From positions 992,001-1,056,000 of the forward strand of contig NZ_CP094974.1 of NCBI RefSeq assembly GCF_022869805.1: a stretch of DNA of 64,000 bases. The letters are read 5' to 3'. How positions within the stretch are numbered: position 1 is the first letter of the stretch; every line of letters starts with the position of its first letter. Shown one piece after another: positions 25,108-58,422 of the stretch. The position numbers were made by a program, and so were the translations under genes. Below the pieces are notes generated by a model that saw nothing but the letters and a program-made list of their open reading frames with translations, did no database searches and was not told the origin of the DNA. The DNA is from Halosolutus halophilus (GTDB lineage: Archaea > Halobacteriota > Halobacteria > Halobacteriales > Natrialbaceae).

Positions 25108-27222
25108 TTACTCGGCGCTCGATCGCGTCTCAGTGGCGCACACCTGGCGAGTGCGCTCGAGGACGCGCTGGGCCGCCGAGGCGGAGACCCGATCGGGTGC
25201 AAAGGCCGCCCGTTCGTATTCCGTGATGACGGCCCGGAGTTGCTCGATCGTCTCGCCCTCCGCGTCGAGGTCGTCGCCGAGCCGGTGGTAAAACTCCCAG
25301 TGCGTGCGCGCGGCCGGGGTCTCCGCATCGTCCCGATACTCGTGTCGAACCGCGGCATAGCTGGCTCGCACCGCGGCCTCCGGTCGGCCGTTCGCCAGGT
25401 GCTCTCGCGCCCGTGACAGCAACGCGTCGACCAGTTCGGGCGTGGTCGCGCGGTCGCCCGTTCCCGGCGGATCGGCGACCGGGTCGGGGTCGGCGTCGTC
25501 GACGGCCCCGCCAGCAGCGGGCCGTCGTCTCCACCACCAGAGACCCCCACCCGCCGCGATCACGACGATCCCCACGAGGACGGCCCACGTCGGTCTCGAC
25601 GACGAGGGGCCGCGGTCCGTCCCCGACAGCGAGACCGTCGTCTCGGTCGCCGTCGGCGCGAGATTCGTTTCCGCCCCGTCGTACTCGGCCGCCACGTGGA
25701 CGTCGGAGGCGGCCGACGATGGCACAGCCAGCGTCGTGACGAACTCGCCGGCGGAATCCGTGGTCACCGTCGCGACGGTCTCCCCGTCGCGGTGGATCTC
25801 GACGGGCTGGTCGCCGACGCCGTCACCGGCAGCCGTCTCGAGGGTGCCGGCGACCTGGAGTTCGTTCTCGTCGGTCGCCGACGCGTCGATCGTCAGATCG
25901 GTTTCCGTTTCCGCGACCGTCACCGGCGTTTCGGCTATCGTGCCGGCCAGCGCCCGGTCGTCGAACGGCAGGGCGACACGGAGCGTGTGGCCCCCGTCGC
26001 GGACCGCCGCTGGGACTGGCACCGCGCCGGCGATCCGCCCATCGGTGACCGGCACCTCGCCGAGGAGTTCGCCGTCGAGTCGCACCTCGAGACCCACGCC
26101 ATCGACCGGGACGCCCCCCGCTGCCACGTCGCCCTCGATCGCGAGTGTGTCACCGTAGGCGACCGTCTCGGTGCTATCGAGATTCGCGATCGTGGGCTCG
26201 ACTTGCTCCACCGAGACGTTCAGCGTCGTTTCGCTCCCGAGATACGGCGATTGCTCCGCGGGGACGTACTCGACCGTCACCGTCTCCGCCGAGAGGGGCT
26301 GCGTCGTCGGGCGGTACTCGAACGCAACCGAGCCGTTCGCCCCCGTCTCGACGGCAACGGGATCCCCATCGATCACGAATCGCGCGTCGTCGCCGTCGAT
26401 CGGCGAGCCGTCCGCCGTTCGTATCTCGCCGCGAGCGACGAGCGGCTCGAGAAACGAGACGGTCTCGTCGTCGGCGTCGAGGCGCAGCTTCGTCTCGACG
26501 AACTGCTCGTCGCGGACGACGGCCTGCTCGCCCCGGATGTCGCGTCGCGTCTCGTCGATCGCGTCGGCGGCGTCCGAGAGATCGTCGTCGGTCTCGAACG
26601 TGATGAGCTCGTAATTCGTGATCAGGCTCTCGCTCGTCTCGTCGATGTCCGCCGCGATCTCTTCGAGGTCGCGGGCCAGCTCGCGGGCGCGTTCGTCGTC
26701 GCCCTCCGCAACCGCGGTTTCGTATTCGTCTTTCGTCGTTCGATACTCCTCGAGACGATCGATCAGGCGCTCCTGTTCGTCCGCGGCCTCCTCGAATGCC
26801 GCCTCGGGATCGTTCCGGTCGTCACGCCCGGCACCCGTTCCACCCTCGCCCGTGTCACCGGCCACCTCGACGTACTGGCCGAGCCGGTCGCGATACTCCT
26901 CGCCGACGAAGTTCCGCGCCCGATCGTATTCGCCCTCGCTCAGCGAGACCGTGCTCCCCGCCAACCGCGACGAGAGCCGATTCGACAGCCAGGCTTCGAT
27001 GCGTTCGGAATCGCCGTCGGCGTCGTACTCGTCCGGATTCTGGTGCCGAACGGTTTCGTTCGCGCCGTCGTCCGCGTCGAGTGTCGCGATCGGGGTGGCT
27101 GCTCCGTCCGCGGCTGAAACGCTTGCTCCAGTGGTCGCTGCTATCGGCGAACAGAGGAGCAGTACCGCGAGTACGAGCGCGCGGCCGGCGTCGTTCACGA
27201 CCGGTGATTGCTCGCTCAGCAC
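25108..27222 (-). CDS. Large exported, membrane-anchored protein with Ig-like domains and DUF4129-like cytoplasmic tail
   Basis: About 704 residues from the chosen GTG at 27222 (an AGG sits 5 nt upstream; GTGs at 27285 and 27198 are alternatives). After a signal peptide (LVLAVLLLCSP), residues 50-230 are charged helix/coiled coil with many Glu/Arg. Residues 235-535 look like successive Ig-like beta domains (for example QPVEIHRDGETVATVTTDS and AVEYDGAETNL-like ends). One span (VLVGIVVIAAGGGLWWW) follows, then a cytoplasmic domain with the DUF4129 pattern RAREHLANGRPEAAVRASY. DUF4129 domains occur beside DUF58 and MoxR genes, which is exactly the context here. Confidence 0.82.
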   Translation of the reverse strand: MLSEQSPVVNDAGRALVLAVLLLCSPIAATTGASVSAADGAATPIATLDADDGANETVRHQNPDEYDADGDSERIEAWLSNRLSSRLAGSTVSLSEGEYDRARNFVGEEYRDRLGQYVEVAGDTGEGGTGAGRDDRNDPEAAFEEAADEQERLIDRLEEYRTTKDEYETAVAEGDDERARELARDLEEIAADIDETSESLITNYELITFETDDDLSDAADAIDETRRDIRGEQAVVRDEQFVETKLRLDADDETVSFLEPLVARGEIRTADGSPIDGDDARFVIDGDPVAVETGANGSVAFEYRPTTQPLSAETVTVEYVPAEQSPYLGSETTLNVSVEQVEPTIANLDSTETVAYGDTLAIEGDVAAGGVPVDGVGLEVRLDGELLGEVPVTDGRIAGAVPVPAAVRDGGHTLRVALPFDDRALAGTIAETPVTVAETETDLTIDASATDENELQVAGTLETAAGDGVGDQPVEIHRDGETVATVTTDSAGEFVTTLAVPSSAASDVHVAAEYDGAETNLAPTATETTVSLSGTDRGPSSSRPTWAVLVGIVVIAAGGGLWWWRRRPAAGGAVDDADPDPVADPPGTGDRATTPELVDALLSRAREHLANGRPEAAVRASYAAVRHEYRDDAETPAARTHWEFYHRLGDDLDAEGETIEQLRAVITEYERAAFAPDRVSASAAQRVLERTRQVCATETRSSAE

Positions 27223-46793: not shown

Positions 46794-47090
46794 CTACGGA
46801 GGGACAGGCCGCGACAGATAAAGAGTTTTCTGTGAATCGGGTCCTTTTAACTGGGACCAGTCCTGCTGGTGTGGCGGTTCAGCGCGGATGATACGAACGA
46901 AACATGGTGGTTGTTGTGAACTCGTCCGCTGCGTCTTGCATTCCGTTACTGACAGCAGATCGGTAGTTCGGTCAGAGTCTGCTGAATAGAAGACGCGTAT
47001 TCAACAGACGCCGCCCTCGGCTACAGTCGGTTGCGAGCGATCTGTACGGAGAAGAGATCTACCAGCGCAGAAAATGCCTGGCGAGACGGA
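46794..47090. other. Gap carrying a dispersed structured repeat
   Basis: No gene. The repeat copy at 46926-47009 occupies its centre; the remainder is featureless. Confidence 0.5.
46926..47009. repeat. Dispersed hairpin repeat, copy 1
   Basis: The right end (46977-47009) is a hairpin with arms GTCTGCTGAATA and TATTCAACAGAC (11 of 12 paired) around the 9-nt loop GAAGACGCG. The left part (GCGTCTTGCATTCCGTTACTG) is a degenerate version of the other copies. Confidence 0.75.
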
Positions 47091-47717
47091 TTATTGCTCG
47101 GAGACGCGTGTATTGATCTGCTCGGCGACTCGCTCGCCAGGACGTCGGAGGGCATCGCTTTCCACTTCATAGATGTAGCCGTGGACAGTGACCTCATCAG
47201 GAACGAGCGGGTGATCCCGAAGATAGTCAACTTGAGCGTGGCACGCCTCATCGACGTCGTCGGTCATCCAGACCCAGTCAGCGATCGATGCGTCACCGAT
47301 GTCTAAATTCGAGAGGGCGGGGTGGAGATCGACGTCCTGAAGATCCCCGCCGGCGGTGGCCTCAAGCCCTTCAACGACAGCGTCATCGGGGGCGCTCATC
47401 ATTCCACAATCGGTGTGGTTGATGACGATTATTTCTGTCGTGTCGAAGAAGTTCGTACTCAACGCAGCGCTCCGGATGACGTCACTGGTTACTTTTCCCC
47501 CGGCGTTACGGAAGATGTGGGCGTCACCGAGAGACAGCCCTAACGCCTCTTCGACGGGAATCCGTTCATCCATGCACGCGACGACTAGCAACTGTTTGTC
47601 CGTCGGGATACCTTTTCGGCGCCGGCGCGCCCAGTTGTCGCGCTCCTCGATCTGCGCTTCGATCCGTTCGAACGCCTGTCTATCCGCTGGTTCGGACCGC
47701 TCAGTAGACTCCCCCAT
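47091..47717 (-). CDS. Beta-class carbonic anhydrase
   Basis: A 208-residue enzyme interconverting CO2 and bicarbonate. Zinc ligands C48, H101 and C104 and the Asp50-Arg52 dyad (CMDERIP, NHTDCGM) are in place; FRNAGGKVTSDVIRS is the usual core. I start at ATG 47717. The frame continues to 47852, but there it runs into a copy of the dispersed repeat, so longer starts are unlikely; an ATG at 47741 is possible. The gene is bracketed by repeat copies. Confidence 0.9.
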   Translation of the reverse strand: MGESTERSEPADRQAFERIEAQIEERDNWARRRRKGIPTDKQLLVVACMDERIPVEEALGLSLGDAHIFRNAGGKVTSDVIRSAALSTNFFDTTEIIVINHTDCGMMSAPDDAVVEGLEATAGGDLQDVDLHPALSNLDIGDASIADWVWMTDDVDEACHAQVDYLRDHPLVPDEVTVHGYIYEVESDALRRPGERVAEQINTRVSEQ

Positions 47718-47837
47718 ATGTGGGGCGTCAACACTGACCATACTCTCGATTGGCGTTGCGGCAACTACCGCCATTATCTGAGACGAAATTCCGTCCAAAC
47801 TGGCTGGAATAAACCAAGCCGATGTACCGAACTCAGC

Positions 47838-47920
47838 CTCCGTATGCAGCACGCCGTTTGTGACAGTGTTCAGGCAGAACGCTCAACCGCTGCTGAATAG
47901 AAGACACATATTCGGCACAC
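47838..47920. repeat. Dispersed hairpin repeat, copy 2
   Basis: Reads CCTCCGTATGCAGCACGCCG, then GTGACAGTGTTCAGG, then a hairpin at 47891-47917 with arms TGCTGAATA and TATTCGGCA (8 of 9 paired) around a 9-nt loop. Upstream TGGAATAAA at about 47804 is shared with copy 3. Confidence 0.75.
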
Positions 47921-48125
47921 ACTATTGCTCGATCAGAGCCGATAAAGAATCGGTAAGTACAAGAATATTCGCTTAGCAGGCTGCCCATTCCGGCCCCAGT
48001 TTTACCCCCCTGACTGGTGAAGCGTGTTTTGATGGTAGTAACTCAAATCGCCCACGTGACTTCCTGTTTTCACGAACAGCGGGTCGGGAGGCGATGTGGA
48101 CTTTCAAAAAATCCAGCGTGAAACT
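47921..48125. other. Intergenic region
   Basis: About 205 nt without a gene. The following gene could alternatively start at the GTG at 48096. Confidence 0.4.
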
Positions 48126-48464
48126 ATGAGTGGACGTGGTGAGCGACCCGAAGAAGAGGGAGAAGAACAGGCAGAGCAAGAAGCAGAGTCGATCGCTCTC
48201 GGAGAGAATATTTACGATAAAGACGGAGAGTTACTCGGGACTGTACGGGGATACGAGAAGGGAGGGTTCTTCGTATCGACGCGAGACGGCATGGAACAGC
48301 TCAGTATCGAACATGCCAGGTCGGGGCACGACTTCGGCGAGGCCCACCTCATGTGGCGATGCATGAACTGCGGTGAGATGGGCGAGATTGCCGACGGACT
48401 CCCAGAGCGATGTCCCAACTGCGGCACCGAAAAGGAGGACCTCATGTGGTGGACCGAAGATTGA
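48126..48464 (+). CDS. Rubredoxin-like zinc-ribbon protein (DUF7130-type)
   Basis: A 112-residue protein. The first 25 residues are Glu-rich; residues 26-66 hold a small beta domain (NIYDKDGELLGTVRGYEKGG); the C-terminus has CMNCG and CPNCG knuckles as in rubredoxin-like proteins. I recall the name DUF7130 for this family. Start ATG 48126, with a GTG ten codons upstream as an alternative. Electron transfer or structural zinc binding are both possible. Confidence 0.8.
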   Translation: MSGRGERPEEEGEEQAEQEAESIALGENIYDKDGELLGTVRGYEKGGFFVSTRDGMEQLSIEHARSGHDFGEAHLMWRCMNCGEMGEIADGLPERCPNCGTEKEDLMWWTED

Positions 48465-48518
48465 TCGAGTTTCCTCCGCGGGGGAAACGAGAGAGAGGGG
48501 ATGGGAGATTCGTAAGCT

Positions 48519-48839
48519 ATGGCTCGTGAACCAGCACCCTCCCGAGAGGAGATCAGAGAACGACTTCAGCAGGTCGGGAGATACTCCCGTGTCGTCCGCG
48601 CGGGATTCGCAGTCATTCTAACTGCGTTTCTGTTGGCCGTTGTCGGCGTGCTTCCCGCGAATCTCGAAAGTACATCACAGGCAATCGAGTCGGTCCTCAT
48701 GCCGCTCACGTTCGTCGGGTTGGGCCTGATCCTGTACGGAATCGGAATGCATCTGCACCTGATGCACTTGAATCTCGTCCGGCAGTTACAGCCGCAACCG
48801 GAGGAAGTCCCCCTATCGAATGCCGAGCAAGACGATTAA
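48519..48839 (+). CDS. Two-span membrane protein
   Basis: A 106-residue protein with spans near 30-50 and 62-84 and a Leu/His-rich loop (GMHLHLMHLNLV). It lies 54 nt downstream of the rubredoxin-like gene on the same strand, suggesting co-transcription. No family known to me. Confidence 0.7.
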   Translation: MAREPAPSREEIRERLQQVGRYSRVVRAGFAVILTAFLLAVVGVLPANLESTSQAIESVLMPLTFVGLGLILYGIGMHLHLMHLNLVRQLQPQPEEVPLSNAEQDD

Positions 48840-49197
48840 TTTTCACCACGACACAGTAGTCCGAGAGTGGCCAACTCACGTATCCATTGAACGGTAGCGT
48901 CACCAGAAATCGCTTGGAATAAATACAGTCGTCCTGATAAATGCGCCCTCGGTATTCATTACACCGCTTCTGATAGTTATTCGGGAGTTCGTTCAGTGGT
49001 TGCTGCACAAAGAGCACGTATTCATCAGTTATCGAACTGATAGTCGGCGATGCAATAGCTACGTATATGCTCCTGCGAGGCACTCGACCCGACGCAATTT
49101 TGAATAGATTTTGAACTAATCTTCAACGGAATCCTCACCGATCTTGTCCACTTCTTGAAAAATTTACTTCGATGGGGCTCGGGTTTGAGCTGGTTGC
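48840..49197. other. Gap with a dispersed-repeat copy
   Basis: Holds repeat copy 3 and, near 49157-49168, an A/T-rich element (AAAAATTTACTT) about 35 nt upstream of the next gene. Confidence 0.5.
48932..49030. repeat. Dispersed hairpin repeat, copy 3 (degenerate)
   Basis: Reads CCTCGGTATTCATTACACCG, TTCTGATAGTTATTCGGGAG and a decayed right hairpin (GTTGCTGCACA ... TATTCATCA). The TGGAATAAA about 25 nt upstream matches copy 2. Confidence 0.6.
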
Positions 49198-50178
49198 ATG
49201 ACGATCGATGAGACACGACGGAAGTTCGTCCAGACGGTAGGTGGAATCACGACCCTCGCACTGGCCGGTTGTACCGGCAACGGGAGCGAGGATTCGATGG
49301 ACAACGGTTCGACGGGTGACGATTCGATGGACGACAGGATGGAACCGTCCGACCCCGCGGACGCATCTCGGGTGACGATAGATCGATTCAGCGAAGAGGC
49401 AGGGATGCTGCACGTCCGCGGGCCGGACAACGACCTCCCAGATCCCGGCGAAGCGATCGATTTCGACCGAAACTTTCTCGCCCAGGGATTCGGACCGGAG
49501 GGGGAGGTCGTCCAGTACTACGATTTCGACGTCCAGCCGACGGCGCCGGCACCCATCTACGCGTTCTTCGACGAGAACGGTGATCCGGTAGAGGGCCAGC
49601 TCAACGTCGTCGGGGTTGTCCCGGGCGACGACGGGTACAACGATTTCTGGCAGGTCAACAAGGTCACGGTCCCCGACGGGTACGAAGCGAACACGATTAC
49701 TAGTGCCAGCAGCCTGATGGACGCCGAGTACGACGTCGAATCGACCGACGTGATAAAGAATTGCCCGGTCGTTCCCGAGGGCTCGACGGCGTCGATGCGA
49801 CACGGCGACGGCAGCACCGAACTAGTGGATGGATGGTACGACGGGCAGGTGGTGAGTTATTTCCTGTTCGAAGAAGCACCGATCAAGGCGTCGAACGGAT
49901 CCGTACTGCGTTCGCCCATTTACGTCACCTTCAACAAAAATCCGGACGAGGAGGGCGGCGGACCACCGTCCGGATTCAAGACCGAGACGGACAGCGCACA
50001 GACGCACAACGTGGTCGCGACACTGCCGGGCGACGCCAGGTACTCCCCGCTGTGGCTGGTCAGCATCTATGATAACACTGACTTCGAGAGCGTCTTGGAC
50101 CTCGAATCGGCCACGAGCGCCTCCATCCTGGCCTCGGACGCGACGAACGTCAACTGTCCAATCGTCTCCGTCCAGTAG
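49198..50178 (+). CDS. Tat-exported lipoprotein
   Basis: A 326-residue protein with twin-arginine signal TRRKFVQTVGG, hydrophobic core and lipobox LAGC, then a Ser/Asp linker. The mature part has two similar halves: DNDLPDPGEAIDFD and a later PIYVTFNKNPDEEGGGPPSG, with FLFEEAPI and PIYAFFDENGD phrases, suggesting an internal duplication of a beta domain. It is probably anchored outside the membrane. Function unknown. Confidence 0.8.
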   Translation: MTIDETRRKFVQTVGGITTLALAGCTGNGSEDSMDNGSTGDDSMDDRMEPSDPADASRVTIDRFSEEAGMLHVRGPDNDLPDPGEAIDFDRNFLAQGFGPEGEVVQYYDFDVQPTAPAPIYAFFDENGDPVEGQLNVVGVVPGDDGYNDFWQVNKVTVPDGYEANTITSASSLMDAEYDVESTDVIKNCPVVPEGSTASMRHGDGSTELVDGWYDGQVVSYFLFEEAPIKASNGSVLRSPIYVTFNKNPDEEGGGPPSGFKTETDSAQTHNVVATLPGDARYSPLWLVSIYDNTDFESVLDLESATSASILASDATNVNCPIVSVQ

Positions 50179-50502
50179 TTGCTCGACGAGGAAATGGACG
50201 GCCACTGGGAACAGCGCAGGTGGGATGCCACGGGTCCGCTGAACACTGTCGCCAAGCACTGGGCCGACACGCGCCTGGACGACGGCCGTCTCGAGATTAC
50301 CGGGCACGACTACGCCGGGATCCGAGGTGTCGAGCGTGTCGAGGTGTCCACAGACGGCGCCGCCACCCGGAATTGTGCTGAACTGTCGGAGCCGGTACCT
50401 GGCGACGACGTCTGGCGCCAGTGGCGGTATATCTTCGAGACGGACGGGAGGAGGTCGGCGATCAGGGCGATCGACTGGGTCACCGAGACGGTGGGGGGAT
50501 GA
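50179..50502 (+). pseudogene. Sulfite-oxidase-type C-terminal domain remnant
   Basis: The 107-residue frame beginning right after the lipoprotein stop contains GHDYAGIRGVERVEVSTDGA and AELSEPVPGDDVWRQWRY, which match the molybdenum-cofactor oxidoreductase dimerisation domain (usual form GHAYAGxRGVxRVEVSTDGG). The molybdopterin domain is absent, the usual TW after DGG is lost, and the end diverges. It has no good start codon. Confidence 0.7.
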
Positions 50503-50542
50503 ACGCCGAACTCATAACCCGCCGAGACGAGGATACGCACGG

Positions 50543-50815
50543 ATGGAGAAGGCACTCTGGTACCTCTTCGTTGGCATGCGTGGCGGCAAGAACCGCGCGC
50601 GCATCATCTCCGCTATCGACGAGCGACCCCGAAACGCCAATCAACTCGCTGAGTGCCTCAACGTCGACTACAATACGGTGAGACACCACCTCGACATGTT
50701 ACAGGAACACGACGTTATCGAATCCGGCGGCGACGATTACGGGAAGCTATATTTCCTGACCGACCGCTTCGAACGCCACCGCGAGGAGTTCGAAAGCGTT
50801 CTGGAGGCGATGTGA
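50543..50815 (+). CDS. Small winged-helix regulator (ArsR-like)
   Basis: A 90-residue HTH protein: NRARIISAIDERPRNANQLA, CLNVDYNTVRHHLDMLQEH (recognition helix) and a wing with DYGKLYFLTDRFE. Start ATG 50543. Its stop abuts the ATG of the membrane gene at 50816. Such HTH plus small-membrane-protein pairs recur in haloarchaea; a signal or envelope function is possible. Confidence 0.85.
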   Translation: MEKALWYLFVGMRGGKNRARIISAIDERPRNANQLAECLNVDYNTVRHHLDMLQEHDVIESGGDDYGKLYFLTDRFERHREEFESVLEAM

Positions 50816-51118
50816 ATGGTGGATGCTATGGGACCCTGGATGCTGGTAGCGACCGTCCTCTCTGGGGTGAACGTTCTCCTTTTGTCGATATTAACGGTCA
50901 TCTGGGTGCGCAATTACCGAACGTTCGGATCCGAGATGACCGCAGGACTAGCCGTGTTCGGCGTTGTTATGCTCCTCGAGAATGTCGTCGCAATTTACTT
51001 CTTTTTCAGCACCGGGATGCTCTACGCTAATTCCCCGGGCGTCCAGCAGTCCGTGGCCGCCCTCCGCGCGCTTCAGACCGTCGCTCTGGCCTTCCTCACC
51101 TACGTCACCGCTAAGTGA
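50816..51118 (+). CDS. Three-span small membrane protein paired with the HTH gene
   Basis: A 100-residue protein with spans near 7-28, 42-65 and 77-96. The ATG starts on the base after the HTH stop codon, so translation is likely coupled. It resembles the ~100-residue membrane partners (DUF7521-like, from memory) of haloarchaeal ArsR-type regulators. Confidence 0.75.
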   Translation: MVDAMGPWMLVATVLSGVNVLLLSILTVIWVRNYRTFGSEMTAGLAVFGVVMLLENVVAIYFFFSTGMLYANSPGVQQSVAALRALQTVALAFLTYVTAK

Positions 51119-51375
51119 CGTGACTTTGATCATACTCTCGAAAATCCATCATACGTTTGAAATTCCTCCTGAATACATCCTCTGTATGCAGCACGCCGTT
51201 TCTGACAGTGTTCAGGTAGAGCACTCAGCCGATGCTGAACAGGTGTCGCGTGTTCAGCATGCACTGACGTTCAATCGAAACAGAACGAATCGCTCAGTAT
51301 AGATGAGCGGATTACCGCTGCTAACCAAAAATCCTCCAGTCCCTGTCAAGAACAACGCGCTGGATGCAGAGGCGT
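51119..51375. other. Gap with the best-preserved repeat copy
   Basis: Holds copy 4 of the dispersed repeat; no gene. Confidence 0.5.
51169..51262. repeat. Dispersed hairpin repeat, copy 4 (best preserved)
   Basis: Left hairpin CTGAATAC ... GTATGCAG, then CACGCCGTTTCTGACAGTG and TTCAGGTAGAGCACTCAGC, then a perfect right hairpin: arms ATGCTGAACA (51232-51241) and TGTTCAGCAT (51251-51260) with the 9-nt loop GGTGTCGCG. Confidence 0.8.
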
Positions 51376-51813
51376 CTACGGACGGCGAATAGGCGCTCCG
51401 ATGAGCGGCGCGATCGACGCGCCCGTGACGAGAAGCCCACCGAGAAGGGTGACGTAGACGCCGATTTCGGGAGGCCACTGGCCAGTAAGTGGGGCAGAGA
51501 CTGTGATCAGAACCGTACCGACACCGATCGCGCCGAGGATCGGCCCGACGATGGACCACCGACCATGGGAGGTAAGACTCGCCAACACGAGGACGGTGCC
51601 GAGTACTGCCCCGAGCAAAAGCCGTTTCCCCCATTGTCGCTCGAAACCGGATTCCATTCCGAGGATGTAGACCCGTGGTTGGATTTCACCGACCCACGGG
51701 AGCAATATTCCGATTCCGATCAACGCAAAGCCAGAGAGGGCGATCACGTGGATGGCCGAAACCCGATTTGAGTCGTTCGCAACGATAGCCGGAGGCCGAT
51801 CCACACCGAGCAT
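51376..51813 (-). CDS. Membrane protein of unknown function
   Basis: A 145-residue protein with about four spans (21-41, 67-80, 87-108, 118-138) and the loop GEIQPRVYILGMESGFERQW, which faces outside or inside between the first two. ATG at 51813; the minus-strand upstream region is A/T-rich (AATAATAAT near 51840), a likely promoter. No family recognised. Confidence 0.65.
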   Translation of the reverse strand: MLGVDRPPAIVANDSNRVSAIHVIALSGFALIGIGILLPWVGEIQPRVYILGMESGFERQWGKRLLLGAVLGTVLVLASLTSHGRWSIVGPILGAIGVGTVLITVSAPLTGQWPPEIGVYVTLLGGLLVTGASIAPLIGAPIRRP

Positions 51814-52063
51814 AGGTGCAGTATAGACAAGAGGCGATTATTATTTTTGTGACGGTGTCTCAAACGATCGATCAGTGCAAGGAAGGTAACCCGCATCCAA
51901 CGATTTCTCGTTCACGGCCAGCATGACAGATGCTAAATACGTGTGGTGAAGTCAGTTCATCTGGACGAACACTTTCAGGATCCGAGAAATTCTTCGACGA
52001 TCGATACGCAACTGTAGTGTGCGCCGGATTCAGTATAGCCACCTCGAAAGAAACGGAACCCCT

Positions 52064-52162
52064 GTGTTGCATAGACCTTCTGTATTCAGCAGGTGGTTTC
52101 TGGTAATTCTTCTGCTCCCGCTGGCCGTGACGATCATCGCAGTAGTAGTCGATCTGCAGTAG
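52064..52162 (+). CDS. Possible 32-residue single-span peptide
   Basis: From GTG 52064 to TAG 52160-52162. Eighteen of 32 residues are hydrophobic and contiguous. It overlaps the repeat fragment, which lowers confidence; it may be the tail of a lost membrane gene. Confidence 0.2.
   Translation: MLHRPSVFSRWFLVILLLPLAVTIIAVVVDLQ
52066..52100. repeat. Dispersed hairpin repeat, copy 5 (left part only)
   Basis: TTCTGTATTCAGCA followed by GGTGGTTTCTGG aligns with the left half of copies 2 and 4; the right hairpin is absent. Confidence 0.5.
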
Positions 52163-52195
52163 GGTGGGCGAGAGGAAGCGGGGACCTGCCTTCGA

Positions 52196-52642
52196 TCAGT
52201 TCGTATTCCACTCCTCACCGAGTTCCTCAACCGAGGGGATGAGCCCGAGTTCCTGAAACAGTCCGAGTGCGTCGTAACTCGTCCACATTTCGGTGATCTT
52301 TCCATCGTCAACGCGATACATTTCCATCCCCGATACCGAAACGTGCTCACCGGTTGGGTCCAGGCCCATAAATTCGCCCTCGTGAGTGCCGCGTGCGGTG
52401 TATCGAACCACGACAGTCGCGCCCTCGGCAACTGCAGTTTCGACTTCGTATTCTACGTCGGGAAACGCCTCTCGATAGGTTTCGACGTATTCCCTGTAGT
52501 CGTCACGATCTTGCGGTTCGTCAGCCGAAGACGGGTCGTGCAGGACGAAATCCGTTGCAAAGATTTCATCGATGGCGTCGAGGTTCCCCTCGGTCCAAAT
52601 CTCCTCTGGATCGCGCCGAACTATCTCTTTATTAGTTGTCAT
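52196..52642 (-). CDS. SnoaL-like ester cyclase / NTF2-fold protein
   Basis: A 148-residue NTF2-like protein of the SnoaL polyketide-cyclase/ester-cyclase type: IFATDFVLHDPSS, YREYVETYREAFPDVEYEVE, the GTHEGEFMGLDPTGEHVSVS loop and a C-terminal FQELGLIP. In archaea these are usually small stress or unknown-function proteins rather than antibiotic enzymes. Start ATG 52642. Confidence 0.88.
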   Translation of the reverse strand: MTTNKEIVRRDPEEIWTEGNLDAIDEIFATDFVLHDPSSADEPQDRDDYREYVETYREAFPDVEYEVETAVAEGATVVVRYTARGTHEGEFMGLDPTGEHVSVSGMEMYRVDDGKITEMWTSYDALGLFQELGLIPSVEELGEEWNTN

Positions 52643-53197
52643 CTCATTGGATTATTGTGGCCTCGTCAATCTTGCCGAACCCGGTTGCACATTCGCATGG
52701 ACTCGGCGGACAGTCCCTCGAAACTGCTCGGGAACGTACCATCATTCGTTTTGTAAACCTAGCCCCCATTCGAACGTGGGACGTTCTTCCGGAGTTTGAT
52801 TCACGTATCGAGTACTGATCTAGCACTCGTAGCGCTGACCGGAGCGGTTCGATTTCTTCCGAAAAGGGCTATATATTAGGAGAGTGACCAAAGAGTTACT
52901 TACCAGGAATAGCTTGACTGAAGTGGCGAGGGATCGTGTAACTATTGTTGTCCGGGCAGACACCCCCACTACACGACTCCCTCGCTCTGATTCTACCGAG
53001 ACGGCTCTGTTGAAACCCCTCCTTCAGGGATGACGTCACCTGAAACGGCTGTTACGTAGCTGTGCTTATCAACCGCGGCGTCCAGTCCGAAACCGCCTGA
53101 AAATAAGACTGACGATCGATCAAAAGATGTGTGTAACTGCCAACGATAGTCGAAACGAGACGCGAGGAACGGTGGGCGGATTGGGACGTTCGCGCGC
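52643..53197. other. 555-nt gap with a decayed reading frame
   Basis: No gene called. On the minus strand the sequence at 53000-53100 reads FGLDAAVDKHSYVTAVSGDV and stops after STEPSR; it has coding-like composition and may be the tail of a lost gene. TGAAACCCCTCCTTCAGGG at 53015-53033 resembles sequences flanking haloarchaeal transposable elements. Confidence 0.35.
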
Positions 53198-53554
53198 TCA
53201 GTCGCCAGCGGCGGTTTGCACGTAGCCGTCGATACGGGCCATGTCGTCGAGGAACCGGTCAAGCCCATCCGTTTCTCTGAGTTCAACGGAGTCCATATTT
53301 GCGCCGAACATTATGATGCCTGCGTCTACCATTCTCGGGAGGTGCATGTGACGAAGACCGGTCTTGATGTCGTTGCTCCCGTTGTTCCGGTCAGTTCTGG
53401 TCTTGACTCCGTCCCATTTGGCGATCGCGGAACTGAGAGTGTCGATACTGACCACCTCGGATTCGTTGGCTAAATAATACAACACGTAGCGCCGGTACGG
53501 GTGAGTCAAGATATCGAGTGTTTCGGTCAGTCGTGACGTGTTCGGTTCTTCCAT
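53198..53554 (-). CDS. DUF7344-type HTH protein
   Basis: A 118-residue protein with the pattern of the haloarchaeal DUF7344 winged helix: LDILTHPYRRYVLYYLANES, then a helix pair and LRHMHLPRMVDAGIIMF, followed by an acidic end. Such proteins are small DNA-binding regulators linked with mobile or variable regions. ATG 53554; TTAAGAGG at about 27 nt upstream on the minus strand is a candidate TATA box. Confidence 0.82.
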   Translation of the reverse strand: MEEPNTSRLTETLDILTHPYRRYVLYYLANESEVVSIDTLSSAIAKWDGVKTRTDRNNGSNDIKTGLRHMHLPRMVDAGIIMFGANMDSVELRETDGLDRFLDDMARIDGYVQTAAGD

Positions 53555-53732
53555 CGTGTATCGATTGGGCTTGGGCCTCTTAACATCTTTTTTGCGATAA
53601 TTTTATGAATTTTACAATTCTGCGTGGAGATGGGTAGGTGATTGACTTTCCCAAGGGAAATGGGGGGTACGTCGGATGGGCATCGCTGGGAAAATTCAAT
53701 AGTCCAACTAGTGGTGCCGTTCCGGTGAGCGA

Positions 53733-54248
53733 CTATTCCTCGGAGGGGCCATTGTCCGATGGAGACTCGGCGTCTTCGCCGGCGATCTCCTGATGGAAGT
53801 GATTCCACGGTTGGATGTGTTCCTCCGCCAGAATATTGCTACTCACGATTCGCAGGCCCAACCTGTCTAACTGTTCGGTACTTTGCTTGACGTCGGACGT
53901 CGCTTCGGCCACGACTTCGACGTGAAGGTTCTCTTCGCCAGCCAGCATCTCCCGGACGTTGACGACTCCCCGCACATCGAGAGCCTTCTCTGCCATATCC
54001 GACCGTTGGGACAGGTCGGTCGAACAGATGAACAAGACGCGCATCGGATAGCCCGCCTGTTCGTAGTCGATTTCCGGATTGTAACCGAGAATGACTCCCT
54101 TCTCATCCAGTTTCTCGATCCGATTGTGGATCGTCGTCGCGGTGACGTCAGTTTCCTCGGCAATGTCCGTGTCGCTGGCACCACGGGCGTCCACCTGTAA
54201 CAGGTGCAGAATACGACGGTCGAGATTGTCGAGTGAATTATCGACCAT
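53733..54248 (-). CDS. Lrp/AsnC-family transcriptional regulator
   Basis: A 171-residue regulator with HTH (LDRRILHLLQVDARGASDTD, then ATTIHNRIEKLDEKGVILGY) and a RAM-like ligand domain (VVNVREMLAGEENLHVEVVA). The C-terminal 40 residues (ILAEEHIQPWNHFHQEIAGE) extend beyond a minimal AsnC. ATG at 54248; three extra upstream codons are possible. Amino-acid sensing is the family norm; target unknown. Confidence 0.88.
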   Translation of the reverse strand: MVDNSLDNLDRRILHLLQVDARGASDTDIAEETDVTATTIHNRIEKLDEKGVILGYNPEIDYEQAGYPMRVLFICSTDLSQRSDMAEKALDVRGVVNVREMLAGEENLHVEVVAEATSDVKQSTEQLDRLGLRIVSSNILAEEHIQPWNHFHQEIAGEDAESPSDNGPSEE

Positions 54249-54387
54249 GTCGTTCAATTCGTCGCCGAGCCAATTGAATCGTTAGCTTGAACCACTCACT
54301 CGGAGAATCCAGGAACGGAACCCGTCAATGGTACATCTACAGACTGTACTGACCGGTCCAAGCCGTCTCCATTTCGAGAGGGTGCCT

Positions 54388-54478
54388 TGCTCTATTCGCA
54401 CCCTGTATTCAGCACCGCCGAAACAACCTGACAGTGTTATTTCATGAGGGGCGTGTCGCATACAGACGCGCATCTATC
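54388..54478. repeat. Dispersed hairpin repeat, copy 6
   Basis: Reads CTCTATTCGCACCCTGTATT, CAGCACCGCC, then AACCTGACAGTG and a diverged right end. It shares the TGTATTCAGCA core with copies 4 and 5. Confidence 0.55.
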
Positions 54479-54537
54479 GTTCCGAGGAGTATCTGTCAGG
54501 TGGCTACTTTTTTGATACCGTGCCCGGATTACAGACT

Positions 54538-55059
54538 ATGGAGGTCCGCCATATCGAGGCGCAAGGTGACGTGAGGGGACTCATCAGGGTACACGGACTG
54601 GCATGGCGAGAAGCGTACGAGGGGTTTCTTCCGGCCGAAGTTCTACAGAAACAGACTATTACGCCGACTGCGGAAGAAGTACAGCGATGGCAGGACGAGC
54701 TCCGTGAACACCGAGAGGGCGTTCTGGTGGCTGTCGATGACGAGGGAGTCGTTCGGGGGTTTGCAGACGTTCGGTGGGGTGATGCAGAAACGAAAGCGTT
54801 TGTTGGTACGGACGAAGCCGGCCTGAAAGCGATCTACGTCGAACCGGGCTGGTGGAACCGAGGAATCGGTACAGCACTGCTCGAACGAGGGCTGGAAGTG
54901 CTTCCCGAGTCGGTCGATGCAGTGCGACTCGAAATGTTTGCAGAGAACGGGATTGCTGATCGGTTCTACGAAGCGAAGGGGTTCGAGCGCACAGATACGG
55001 GGGAATACGAGATCGCAGGACGTTCTTACCCGACGAATATCTACACGCTCCAGTTGTGA
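54538..55059 (+). CDS. GNAT-family N-acetyltransferase
   Basis: A 173-residue acetyltransferase. The acetyl-CoA loop is in YVEPGWWNRGIGTALLERGLE (R-G-I-G-T-A, about 108-113), the preceding strand is AGLKAIYV, and FYEAKGFER is motif B. Start ATG 54538, six codons inside the open frame. Substrate unknown; the first segment (LIRVHGLAWREAYEGFLP) resembles the general GNAT families that acetylate amines or aminoglycosides. Confidence 0.9.
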   Translation: MEVRHIEAQGDVRGLIRVHGLAWREAYEGFLPAEVLQKQTITPTAEEVQRWQDELREHREGVLVAVDDEGVVRGFADVRWGDAETKAFVGTDEAGLKAIYVEPGWWNRGIGTALLERGLEVLPESVDAVRLEMFAENGIADRFYEAKGFERTDTGEYEIAGRSYPTNIYTLQL

Positions 55060-55690
55060 TCGCTTGGTGGGTGAACCCCTCTACTTGTCGATATCTGAGC
55101 GGTCCGTGGCTCTGTTGACATCCTGGTGCGCAGACACGGACTGGACAAACCAGTGGTAAGAAGGTCTGCTTATTGACCGACGGGCATTCTCTCTGGTGTG
55201 AATCATATCCGTCGAAGCCTCCCGAATAGGGAGTCCGAATCGATCGGACACGCACGCTATTAATCACAGCCCCGAGACCGCGTGGGAAAACACTCGTTTC
55301 AGGACCGCAAATACCGTTCCATAGCTACTGAATCAGCCCCCACGCCAATTGCCCCTCAAGATCTGCTCCGAGAAGGAGGCCGAATTTGTGCTCTCATCCT
55401 TTTTTGAGGCATCCTCGCTGCCATCGGAAGATTTGGAATCGGAACCATCGGGTATGCCCGGCCGGGGAGTTTCTTCTTCGAACTGGGTACGCCATTGCGC
55501 GCTTCTGCATCGTTACGGGACTCGCTAGCGTCCTCATCTACGTTATCGCTCGTGGCATCCAACTCTCCCGCCGCAATCAGCGTATTCAACCCCGATGAAC
55601 GAGAGGCCCTCTACTCCGTTCCGTCTTTAGCGATACGTTTCGTTCACTCTGTGCGAAACTTTCTCGTGTTTCAAGTCCGTCGGTGTAGGT
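55060..55690. other. 630-nt gap with a broken membrane-gene fragment
   Basis: One plus frame reads GILAAIGRFGIGTIGYARPG, and the next frame continues LLRTGYAIARFCIVTGLASV and LIYVIARGIQLSRR to a stop at 55598. Joined, they look like a two-span membrane protein with a frameshift near 55470. The rest is featureless. Confidence 0.35.
55400..55598 (+). pseudogene. Possible frameshifted small membrane-protein gene
   Basis: The two frames described for this gap are each hydrophobic in adjacent halves and together form a plausible short membrane protein. The alternative is that the 55386-55598 frame is chance. No family match. Confidence 0.3.
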
Positions 55691-55897
55691 ATGTCAACAA
55701 CTGTGGAGCTCCCCGAGCCGGATGAAGCCTGTACGTACTGTGAGGCCCGTATTTTCGACCACGACCCCATCTGCGTACGTGATTGTACCGCAGATTGTGG
55801 CTCGCCCGCGTACTTCTGCAACTACGCCTGCCTATCAGCACACATCGATGCCCAGGACCTGACTGCGGGAAACGCGTGCGAATGGTCGCCCGACTGA
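55691..55897 (+). CDS. Small Cys/His-rich zinc-binding protein
   Basis: A 68-residue protein with CTYCEARIFDHDP, CVRDC, CGSPAYFCNYAC and AHID, i.e. many Cys plus His, in a pattern like haloarchaeal small zinc proteins (DUF7576-like from memory). Start ATG 55691. The frame reads on beyond its TGA for about 60 codons with coding-like composition to a stop at 56077, suggesting that this stretch once encoded more. Confidence 0.75.
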   Translation: MSTTVELPEPDEACTYCEARIFDHDPICVRDCTADCGSPAYFCNYACLSAHIDAQDLTAGNACEWSPD

Positions 55898-56073
55898 TTT
55901 CCGGTTCCCCCATCGAGGTCCAGAATCGATACTGGGCGGTCCGCAACTGGAGTGTACGGCCTTTTCGCGGAGGGGGAACCGAGTGAGGCTGCCTTCGGTC
56001 CCCCCGCATTAGCGGTTCCAGAACTGGTGGAACAGATGCAAGGGGAGGTCCACGGGAAAGACCCCTGTGACGC

Positions 56074-56547
56074 GTGAAAATTCTCCACGACGCCTTGTAT
56101 GAGGGTGCTATCGATCGAACAGTCCCGAGCCTCGGAGAACCGTTCATCACTGCGTACTTCCTCGAAAAGAATGGAATCATCTCTCCCGATGACGACCCGA
56201 CGGAAAGTGAATACCGTTCGATTGTCAAGCGCCGTCCTTCCAGTGAGCGACCCGGAGAACTATTTTGTGAGCGAGAACGGACCCTCTGGTGGATTGGCAT
56301 ACTGGCTGGTGTTCATCCGTCGCTGGTGACGTACTGGTTCTCTGAAGATCCAGGTTTTGCTGAACGCATAGCGCGTAATCAGCAGCGTAATTCATGTCGA
56401 AATGATTTTATTTGGTTCTTCAGTAGCTCATCCCATGTCGAAGAAGACGGTCGTCGAATTTATCGAGGAGTGGCAGACGGGCTTCTTTATCATGCTCAGC
56501 AGTCTTATTGCGGGCAGCATCGGGGGATTCCTCTTTGGTCAGGTTGA
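56074..56547 (+). CDS. Hypothetical protein, uncertain
   Basis: A GTG-started 157-residue frame. Its first 105 residues look coding (PSLGEPFITAYFLEKNGIIS, ERTLWWIGILAGVHPSLVTY), but the last 45 overlap the gene at 56435 in another frame and look random. The real product probably ends near 56400 through a frameshift or different stop. No family recognised. Confidence 0.35.
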   Translation: MKILHDALYEGAIDRTVPSLGEPFITAYFLEKNGIISPDDDPTESEYRSIVKRRPSSERPGELFCERERTLWWIGILAGVHPSLVTYWFSEDPGFAERIARNQQRNSCRNDFIWFFSSSSHVEEDGRRIYRGVADGLLYHAQQSYCGQHRGIPLWSG

Positions 56548-56626
56548 GTTAAACACGATCGTCGGATTCGGAGTGGGTTTTCTGCTCATGTTCCTCAGTG
56601 CTTCGTACGTCCTCTATGGCCGGTGA
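56435..56626 (+). CDS. Small two-span membrane protein
   Basis: A 63-residue protein, ATG 56435 to TGA. Residues 1-15 are a polar helix (SKKTVVEFIEEWQ), then two spans near 16-36 and 41-58 with GxxxG features (AGSIGGFLFG). It resembles the many small haloarchaeal membrane proteins of unknown role. Confidence 0.7.
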   Translation: MSKKTVVEFIEEWQTGFFIMLSSLIAGSIGGFLFGQVELNTIVGFGVGFLLMFLSASYVLYGR

Positions 56627-57264
56627 AAGAGACGGGCCCACGTGATCGATACGTCCCCTGTCTTTCGCCCGCATCTTCTCTCACTCGCTGCGGATTTTTA
56701 CCCGGGTCTTTCCGGTGCGCCGCCCGGCCGCTCGATTCGGGGCCAGTGAGGTGCGCGTGCGGCAGTAGGCTCGCTCATCGCCGTCTTCTCGTCGAGTGGG
56801 GGCGTCCTCACTGGATCCGTCTCTGGGCGATCGATGCTCACGCGGAATCCGCCGCATCGACCGTTCGAGGGTGCGAGGTTCGACAGCGGCACATCCGGGA
56901 GCTATCGCGTCGCCAACGCGCAGCAGTTGGACCGGAAGGCGCTCGTGGTCGAAAGCGCGACCTTCGCAGTCGCAACGATCGGCGAATAGTTATTTCAATC
57001 CTGTCGGAACCGTCTGTTGTTGATCGGTACTCAGCGGTCGTGTCACGTACAGAGCAGCAACCTGACGATGTGTTTCGCCCGAGTTGGACCCGGAAGCAGG
57101 CGACCGGCCCTCCCCGTTCAGAAGTATCCTACCGCCGCCCATCCCCGACGATGTCCGTGATCACCGCACGCTGCGCCGTCTCGTCGACGACGATATACGA
57201 ATCCCTCGACGCAGAGGCGAGGTGAACCAGAAAACTTTCGTTCTAACTGCCTGTCAAGAGTGGT
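56627..57264. other. Gap with one short coding-like frame
   Basis: At 56834-56989 a frame codes for 51 residues with good composition (for example FDSGTSGSYRVANAQQLDRK and ALVVESATFAVATIGE), open upstream without a start. A possible degenerate repeat copy lies near 57015-57075. Confidence 0.35.
56834..56989 (+). CDS. Possible 51-residue frame, perhaps a 5'-truncated gene
   Basis: ATG 56834 to TAG. Coding-like composition continues upstream in frame (AVGSLIAVFSSSGG) to a stop near 56750 without a standard start, which suggests that this is the tail of a truncated gene rather than a complete one. Confidence 0.3.
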   Translation: MLTRNPPHRPFEGARFDSGTSGSYRVANAQQLDRKALVVESATFAVATIGE

Positions 57265-58122
57265 ATGCGACGTCGCCAGTACCTCGCAAGCGGAACAGCC
57301 CTCCTCTCCGCCGCTGTCGCCGGATGCGCCCATCCATCTGTCGTCCTCGATATGGACGAAGCGACGGCAGACGATATCGCCAATGAAGTTTCGATGTCGG
57401 TTGATCCCGGTTCAGCCGAATATACTCTCGTCTTGTCGGCCCTCGAGAATGGATCGGCCAGACGGAGAGGACGGTACGAACTATTCGACCGCACTGACAC
57501 AGTCCGGGTCGAAGGCTCCTTCTACGAAGTCTCGGAGACTCGGCTCGAGAGTAGCGAGGTGACGGTCTATGAGGTTCTCATCGATTTCGATCCAGCCAAT
57601 TCAACGACCGAACTGGGCGAGATCGAATACGACGACCTGCCCGAGGCGGATCGCCAGCGCCTCGACCCGATCGTTTCAGAAGGCACCCCTCCCAGTCAGG
57701 ACGGATATGATCTCGGCGTCGATTACGGAACTGCTGAGGAAGTCGGGAACGAGTCGGTGTTCGTTCCGGATCGGCAGTACGATATTGTTCTCCACGACGG
57801 GAATCGGTATCGGGTTGCGGTCGATTCGCGAACCGCGCCTGAGGCCGAGTATCGATACGAAGTGACCGAAGTCGCGTCCAGCGTCGAAACAGTTGCCGAC
57901 CAAGTGCGAGAGCAGTACCTGTTCACACTCACAGACCTTTCCGACGCCGAACGCGCGGTCGTCGAGGAGGCGATCACCGATGGATACTTCCAAGACGACG
58001 ACGCCTTCCAGTCGGTGATCGATCGTATTCGAGAGCACGAGGGGATTACTGTGGACGATTTCTACGGAACGTGGCTCCTCGAGTACGAGAGTGTCGAGTA
58101 TCTCACCTATGCTGAATGGTAG
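57265..58122 (+). CDS. Lipobox/Tat-type exported protein
   Basis: A 285-residue protein with MRRRQYLASGTALLSA, AAVAGC lipobox and an acidic mature region. Residues 60-150 and 170-250 are rich in Glu/Arg with VDYGTAEEVGNESVFVPDRQ and a terminal helical part that ends EYLTYAEW. It is probably a surface lipoprotein. The Arg-rich start suggests the Tat pathway, but the strict second Arg spacing is RRRQYL. No family is recognised. Confidence 0.75.
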   Translation: MRRRQYLASGTALLSAAVAGCAHPSVVLDMDEATADDIANEVSMSVDPGSAEYTLVLSALENGSARRRGRYELFDRTDTVRVEGSFYEVSETRLESSEVTVYEVLIDFDPANSTTELGEIEYDDLPEADRQRLDPIVSEGTPPSQDGYDLGVDYGTAEEVGNESVFVPDRQYDIVLHDGNRYRVAVDSRTAPEAEYRYEVTEVASSVETVADQVREQYLFTLTDLSDAERAVVEEAITDGYFQDDDAFQSVIDRIREHEGITVDDFYGTWLLEYESVEYLTYAEW

Positions 58123-58249
58123 TCACCGTCGGGATTTCGAATTCGATCTACTGAGCGATCCATCTACTTCTCATTTGAGAGGAGTCTCGTACGAGATTTG
58201 CACCATCACTTCAGCAAAGGCTTAAGTAATTGTTTTCTTATATGTTCTG

Positions 58250-58310
58250 CAGCGATCAGTTCCACTCTGTATCTTGCACGCGCTTTCTGACAGTTGCCGG
58301 ATAGCGTGAG
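58250..58310. repeat. Dispersed hairpin repeat, copy 7
   Basis: CACTCTGTATCTTGCACGCG, CTTTCTGACAGTTGCCGGAT aligns to the left half and linker of copies 2 and 4; the right hairpin is not present. Confidence 0.5.
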
Positions 58311-58422
58311 CGAGGCGTGGAGAGACGGGTGTGTACGCAGCAGGGAACTGCCTTCAGCTCAGGACGATCGAGTTCACTAGGACAGCCGAGACCGTTCCTA
58401 CAGTGTAGGCTGGCAGACAGGT

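Follow-up and report, generated by a model that had tools for sequence, protein, structure and literature searches.

A 203-nt repeat with two palindromic core sites as the probable recombination site of an integron-like gene-cassette system in haloarchaea

The 64,000-nt stretch of the Halosolutus halophilus genome analysed here (hereafter the window; G000:C1:992001-1056000 of a host genome consisting of a single 5.06-Mb contig) carries several copies of a dispersed palindromic repeat, and these repeats are probably the recombination sites of an integron-like haloarchaeal gene-cassette system. We read this system as resembling an integron without being one, since the integron integrase IntI is absent, cassette genes point in random directions and the recombinase gene is located within the site. 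In silico analyses, on which the whole work rests, reveal arrays of elements having a constant orientation, turnover of gene content between fixed flanks, homology breaks concentrated in the element spacers and a recombinase gene located inside the element linker.

The element is ca. 203 nt long, compared with the ca. 100 nt first described. A previous reading of the window, based on sequence only, had reported a 3' hairpin with loops of exactly 9 nt; this hairpin exists, but a second one is located upstream, and good copies have the exact 9-nt loop twice, once per hairpin. Each element contains two core sites, in which 9-bp inverted arms, such as TGCTGAATA / TATTCAGCA, flank a 9-nt spacer; spacer 1 and spacer 2 are separated by a linker of ca. 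57 nt, and the outer ends correspond to GTTCAGT / ACTGAAC and CTCAGTACAG. When scored with a profile hidden Markov model (HMM) made from full-length copies, the repeats near 46926, 47838, 48932, 51169 and 52066 were recovered on the plus strand with 47-104 bits (Table 1), while the putative copy near 57015 gave no match and that near 58250 was resolved into a weak composite of one minus- and one plus-strand piece. All copies had been described as sharing one orientation, but orientation in the window is not uniform because the copy near 54388 occurs on the minus strand. The first 46 kb are indeed empty, with no match at E<=1e-3 in window positions 1-46000. Confinement of the repeats to the accessory stretch stands inside the window but not genome-wide, where at least 150 copies occur in arrays.

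Covariation was analysed in 76 core copies. None was detected in the 3' hairpin, and hairpin 1 covaries only weakly; the strong signal is instead long-range and associates the right arm of hairpin 1 with the left arm of hairpin 2. An outer TCGTGC/GCACGA pair is part of the same signal, which is that of the linker ends (71 two-sided cells vs 42.9 +/- 5.3). No consensus RNA structure of the element was found with RNAalifold and an Rfam search of the element returned zero matches. Because the covariation is long-range, the RNA fold absent and the folding of single-stranded DNA weak, we interpret the arms as inverted DNA repeats to which protein binds, and which would make up two core sites of a tyrosine recombinase, each having a 9-nt spacer. 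A structured RNA, as suggested earlier, or a cis-regulatory element of the adjoining genes would account for the hairpins and their intergenic location, but it is extremely improbable in view of the missing Rfam match, consensus structure and 3' hairpin covariation, and of the random orientation of the genes (see below).

A search of the host genome with a core model detected the at least 150 copies mentioned above, with arrays at 0.56, 0.78-0.89, 1.04-1.10, 1.92, 3.0, 3.7, 4.06 and 4.92-4.96 Mb. Array statistics were computed on 143 host copies in fetched regions, neighbours being defined as copies within 3 kb. Neighbouring elements share the same orientation in 109 cases out of 121 and differ in 12 (p 5e-21), and in six other genomes the corresponding figures are 74 and 1. 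The gap between host copies has a median of 702 bp and those gaps that hold genes mostly contain a single one, the orientation of which is random relative to the element (45 same, 40 opposite). Cassette open reading frames (ORFs) tend to be short, with a median of 184 aa, and, based on a crude home-made lipobox rule, are enriched in lipoproteins (19/75 vs 4/145 away from arrays, p 6e-7). Other products include PQQ propellers, GNAT, NUDIX and hydrolases as well as a beta-carbonic anhydrase in the window, functions beyond the Pfam matches of the window being judged from sequence by eye. Of 195 genomes from the order, 157 contain the element, as do 65 haloarchaeal plasmids from ca. 24 genera, most collections containing one genome per species; it was found in none of the 50,697 phage records searched. 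Copies are only 70-80% alike and individual elements are mosaics.

The earlier suggestion that the copies mark modular insertions is supported, as they bound exchangeable single-gene blocks. The clearest turnover was observed between two Haloprofundus plasmids having common flanks of 84-86% identity, between which one plasmid carries ca. nine elements and the other five, with zero shared cassettes; on both sides, homology ends within elements. When the two flanks are joined, the left and right arms of either species match as a perfect palindrome even though the arms differ between the two species (Table 1), an observation that is suggestive only. The arrays of Natribaculum breve and N. longum are near-identical and uninformative on turnover; a comparison of the two species also showed a 588-bp direct duplication bounding a 4-kb insertion in N. 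longum (L107:20688-21275 and 25194-25781).

For four cassettes, breaks could be placed in the spacers to within a few bases by aligning the host with Halorussus salinisoli, which belongs to a different family, the host with Natronorubrum aibiense, and Haloprofundus genomes with each other. Homology of a same cassette begins at GCGCGAAT in spacer 2 and ends just past CCTCT in spacer 1; the linkers on its two sides usually differ from one context to the other. Of the breakpoints in an automated set, 10 of 21 starts lie within HMM positions 128-149 (p 4e-5) and 11 of 19 ends within positions 66-84 (p 7e-8); these windows were chosen from the palindromes, although the data were already known. Simulated chimaeras with random breaks were recovered without spacer bias. 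Cassette exchange has two crossover points, compared with one in integrons.

The candidate enzyme is a short tyrosine recombinase of ca. 234 aa (clade A) whose gene occurs within the element in many haloarchaea, with the left element half on one side, the right half on the other, and either orientation of the gene. Among named genomes, an element was found near 21 of 23 clade-A genes vs 1 of 27 genes of clade B, and directly abutting 17/23 vs 0/27 (p 1e-8); a separate survey, overlapping in species, gave 12/14 and 0/16, respectively. The catalytic R, K, HxxR, H/W and Y of tyrosine recombinases (PF00589) are conserved together with the fold: the AlphaFold2 model has a mean pLDDT of 83, a short N-terminal region being poorly predicted, and the best matches of this predicted model to solved folds include XerA (5hxy) and an integron integrase (2a3v). 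An intact 311-aa Xer-like recombinase heads the host array at 3.705-3.7135 Mb (G000:C1 3713835-3714770) and is a possible second driver of the arrays. Genes for transcription factor B (TFB) paralogues also recur beside arrays or the clade-A recombinase (L108:21400-22356, L109:24046-25002, L097:9025, L099:6014).

Several findings weigh against the elements being sites of a dedicated recombinase. The only clade-A copy of the host (3706313-3706963) is broken by an in-frame stop, many element-rich genomes have no clade-A recombinase, and this gene may simply be carried along by the element. When folded as single strands, 43 copies are not clearly more stable than shuffled sequences (mean z -0.6), and because of this weak folding an attC-like single-strand route is unsupported. 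Empty sites in which one core site remains intact were not found. Finally, ca. half of the 40 breakpoints are located elsewhere than in the spacers, mostly at the element outer ends (HMM positions 7-20 and 183-199), where they could also fit homologous recombination or gene conversion. Shuffling only by such processes between dispersed divergent repeats, with no dedicated enzyme now acting on them, would agree with these outer-end breaks, with the mosaic structure of the elements and with many array-bearing genomes having either no recombinase or a broken one. We nevertheless regard it as unlikely, because breaks cluster in the two 9-nt spacers while simulation showed no such bias, four cases are exact to a few bases, the repeats are just 70-80% alike and one recombinase clade is encoded within the element.

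The nesting of the recombinase between left and right halves, the sharp ends of the element and the inverted repeats at the linker ends would also be expected of a transposable element, the recombinase form being autonomous and the 203-nt form an internal deletion, similar to a miniature inverted-repeat transposable element (MITE), inserted between genes by chance. This is somewhat less likely still: insertion by chance is at odds with the orientation bias (109:12 and 74:1) and with about one gene per gap, whole gene blocks rather than elements vary between fixed flanks, the breaks are located inside the element, and no linker-free junction occurs in the fetched DNA. The sequence-only reading had also proposed MITEs or ends of a lost insertion sequence (IS); no transposase having the same ends was found. 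A MITE of a known IS, the ends of which would match those of an element with a DDE transposase, was also set aside: those IS5-type copies that are present in the loops have their own ends and are later guests.

If the elements are recombination sites of cassettes, the 203-nt element would represent the junction of two adjoining cassettes, and a cassette would begin inside the core site 2 spacer, with the boundary just before GCGCGAATGTNGCACG, contain in most cases a single gene and end inside the next core site 1 spacer, with the boundary just after TGCTGAACTCATCCTCT. Most likely, recombinase monomers would bind the arms, then cut and exchange strands in the spacers. Since shared cassettes span spacer 2 to spacer 1 and linkers are left behind, two routes may be envisaged. 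In the first, a circle would form between two sites flanking a gene and be excised and inserted, such a circle carrying a joint of CATCCTCT immediately followed by GCGCG; in the second, two sites would recombine in one exchange that swaps cassettes between two linkers. Given the in-frame stop in the sole clade-A copy, the host arrays would either be resting or depend on a driver acting in trans, namely the intact Xer-like recombinase located beside one of them.

Elements are themselves interrupted by IS elements. Six copies of a 1.1-kb IS5-type IS, which encodes a transposase of ca. 285 aa, are inserted into spacer 2 of elements (Table 1); these insertions mostly duplicate the 9-nt spacer and the IS targets core sites. 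A flank common to several copies, GGCCGTGTTTAGACGC, was first taken as part of the element and belongs to this IS. A different IS, with ends GGCTCTGTTGAAACCCTCAGTA and presumably IS6-like, repeatedly splits the linker at TATCAG. Half-elements were considered as array ends and discarded, many being broken by an IS with the terminal inverted repeat GGCTCTGTTGAAACCCTC or corresponding to head-to-head composites. Composite copies constitute a recurring subtype in which a left half is followed by ca. 25 nt and an inverted right half, with the motif GGTAACNCCTTCRCCTGTACTGAGCG (see G000:C1 780532-780808, 843628-843806 and 872563-872720).

Table 1. Coordinates of elements, core sites, intervening blocks and related features. 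Positions without a prefix are those of the window.
Feature	Position	Strand	Details
Element copy 1	46875..47047	+	HMM 25-198, 88 bits
Copy 1, core site 1	46914-46940		spacer 46923-46931
Copy 1, core site 2	46980-47006		spacer GAAGACGCG, 46989-46997
Cassette gene, beta-carbonic anhydrase (longest ORF)	47091..47852	-	Pfam PF00484, E 3.9e-14
Element copy 2	47800..47961	+	HMM 39-199, 104 bits
Copy 2, core site 1	47825-47851		spacer CAGCCTCCG
Copy 2, core site 2	47891-47917		spacer GAAGACACA
Cassette block	48096..48839	+	DUF7130/rubredoxin-like protein 48096-48464; small membrane protein 48519-48839
Element copy 3	48876..49027	+	HMM 5-156, 87 bits
Copy 3, core site 1	48935-48961		spacer CGCCCTCGG
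Copy 3, core site 2	49001-49027		spacer AAGAGCACG
Block	49198..51118	+	lipoprotein DUF7482 and three more genes
Element copy 4	51166..51302	+	HMM 63-200, 84 bits
Copy 4, core site 1	51167-51193		spacer CATCCTCTG
Copy 4, core site 2	51233-51259		spacer GGTGTCGCG
Cassette gene, 145-aa membrane protein	51376..51813	-	no Pfam match
Element copy 5, left half only	52004..52107	+	HMM 3-106, 47 bits
Element copy 6, opposite orientation	54344..54466	-	HMM 78-200, 58 bits, E 1.7e-16
Weak right-half piece	58149..58224	-	HMM 122-197, 26 bits
Weak piece	58264..58369	+	HMM 76-183, 27 bits
IS5-type copies	G000:C1 846976-848103, 872662-873763, 884633-885728, 1096254-1097352, 1920519-1921609, 3709969-3711070		
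Sites of IS with ends GGCTCTGTTGAAACCCTCAGTA	L098:10248, L100:15690, host 3012791, 4694706, others		
Haloprofundus flanks, plasmid L108	11946-13532 and 21266-24473		palindrome arms TGCTGAATA/TATTCAGCA
Haloprofundus flanks, plasmid L109	17809-19408 and 23912-27117		palindrome arms TGCTGAACT/AGTTCAGCA

In the window, the annotated 5' end of the beta-carbonic anhydrase gene overlaps element copy 2, and for this reason its true start is probably located downstream. The cassette block between copies 2 and 3 recurs elsewhere in another genome (G002) at ca. 90%. The right part of the next block (50182-51120) is a conserved three-gene block in other genomes: it is followed by an element at the same place in G262, G279 and G275, with homology breaking inside the element, and occurs without the element in G012, G249, G241 and G153.

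As in integrons, the arrays are long and their cassettes mostly hold a single gene; the recombination sites are palindromic, related to each other and uniformly oriented; there is a tyrosine recombinase, although arrays devoid of one are common; and cassettes are exchanged laterally, precisely and at a fixed crossover. In contrast, four of the six integron-defining features tested are not found here. No IntI was detected (TIGR02249, 20.7 bits vs a cut-off of 265); the GTTRRRY / RYYYAAC core and stable single-strand fold of attC are lacking; cassette genes are not mostly oriented with the site, as the counts given above indicate; and instead of an integrase beside attI at the array end, a recombinase occurs between the site halves in either orientation. 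The site also differs in comprising two core sites plus a linker over ca. 200 nt, and the linkers do not travel with the cassette. Archaeal integrons have been described from 75 metagenome-assembled genomes using IntI/attC searches, with a longest array of 12 sites (Ghaly 2022, PMC9668308), a study in which Halobacteria are not mentioned. Archaeal Xer-like and phage-type tyrosine recombinases (PMC8371274) share the catalytic fold and residues, as well as inverted arms around a short overlap region, but clade A is short and would serve cassette arrays rather than dimer resolution or provirus integration.

The nearest prior observations are the PATE and small mobile repeats (SMR) of Haloquadratum and the deletion-coupled insertions described in the same genus, a 2011 comparison of two strains having counted 64 identical positions at which their DNA was unrelated, with no mechanism given (PMC3119063). 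These share with our elements the palindromic non-coding repeats and the fact that two strains may carry unrelated DNA at one position; they are set apart, as described, by the lack here of an IS605/TnpB link and by the recombinase and defined crossover spacers. That the elements are PATE or SMR related to IS605-type transposons is very unlikely. The two look alike, being ca. 100-200 nt long, transposase-less and in many copies with palindromes near the ends, and other mobile elements are inserted in the PATE palindromes (PMC3119063) as IS copies are in the loops here; yet no Y1 TnpA was found in the host genome, none of nine TnpB matches is closer than 1 kb to a listed element, and the protein encoded in the element is a tyrosine recombinase. 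A search of openly accessible papers retrieved no description of haloarchaeal cassette arrays.

How haloarchaea exchange genes so heavily is a standing question, and defined sites together with a named recombinase make this exchange testable in a genetically tractable group. There is about an even chance that cassette exchange evolved here independently of integrons, with a short tyrosine recombinase and paired core sites swapping single genes between linkers. If true, this would be a second cassette system beside integrons, differently built, in which hundreds of accessory genes, many of them for surface lipoproteins, form a shared gene pool, and it may explain some of the unrelated sequences found at identical positions in haloarchaeal genomes. 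The elements also point to a pool of accessory genes for surface proteins, one that would probably escape standard integron searches, and they could serve as a gene-insertion tool in archaea.

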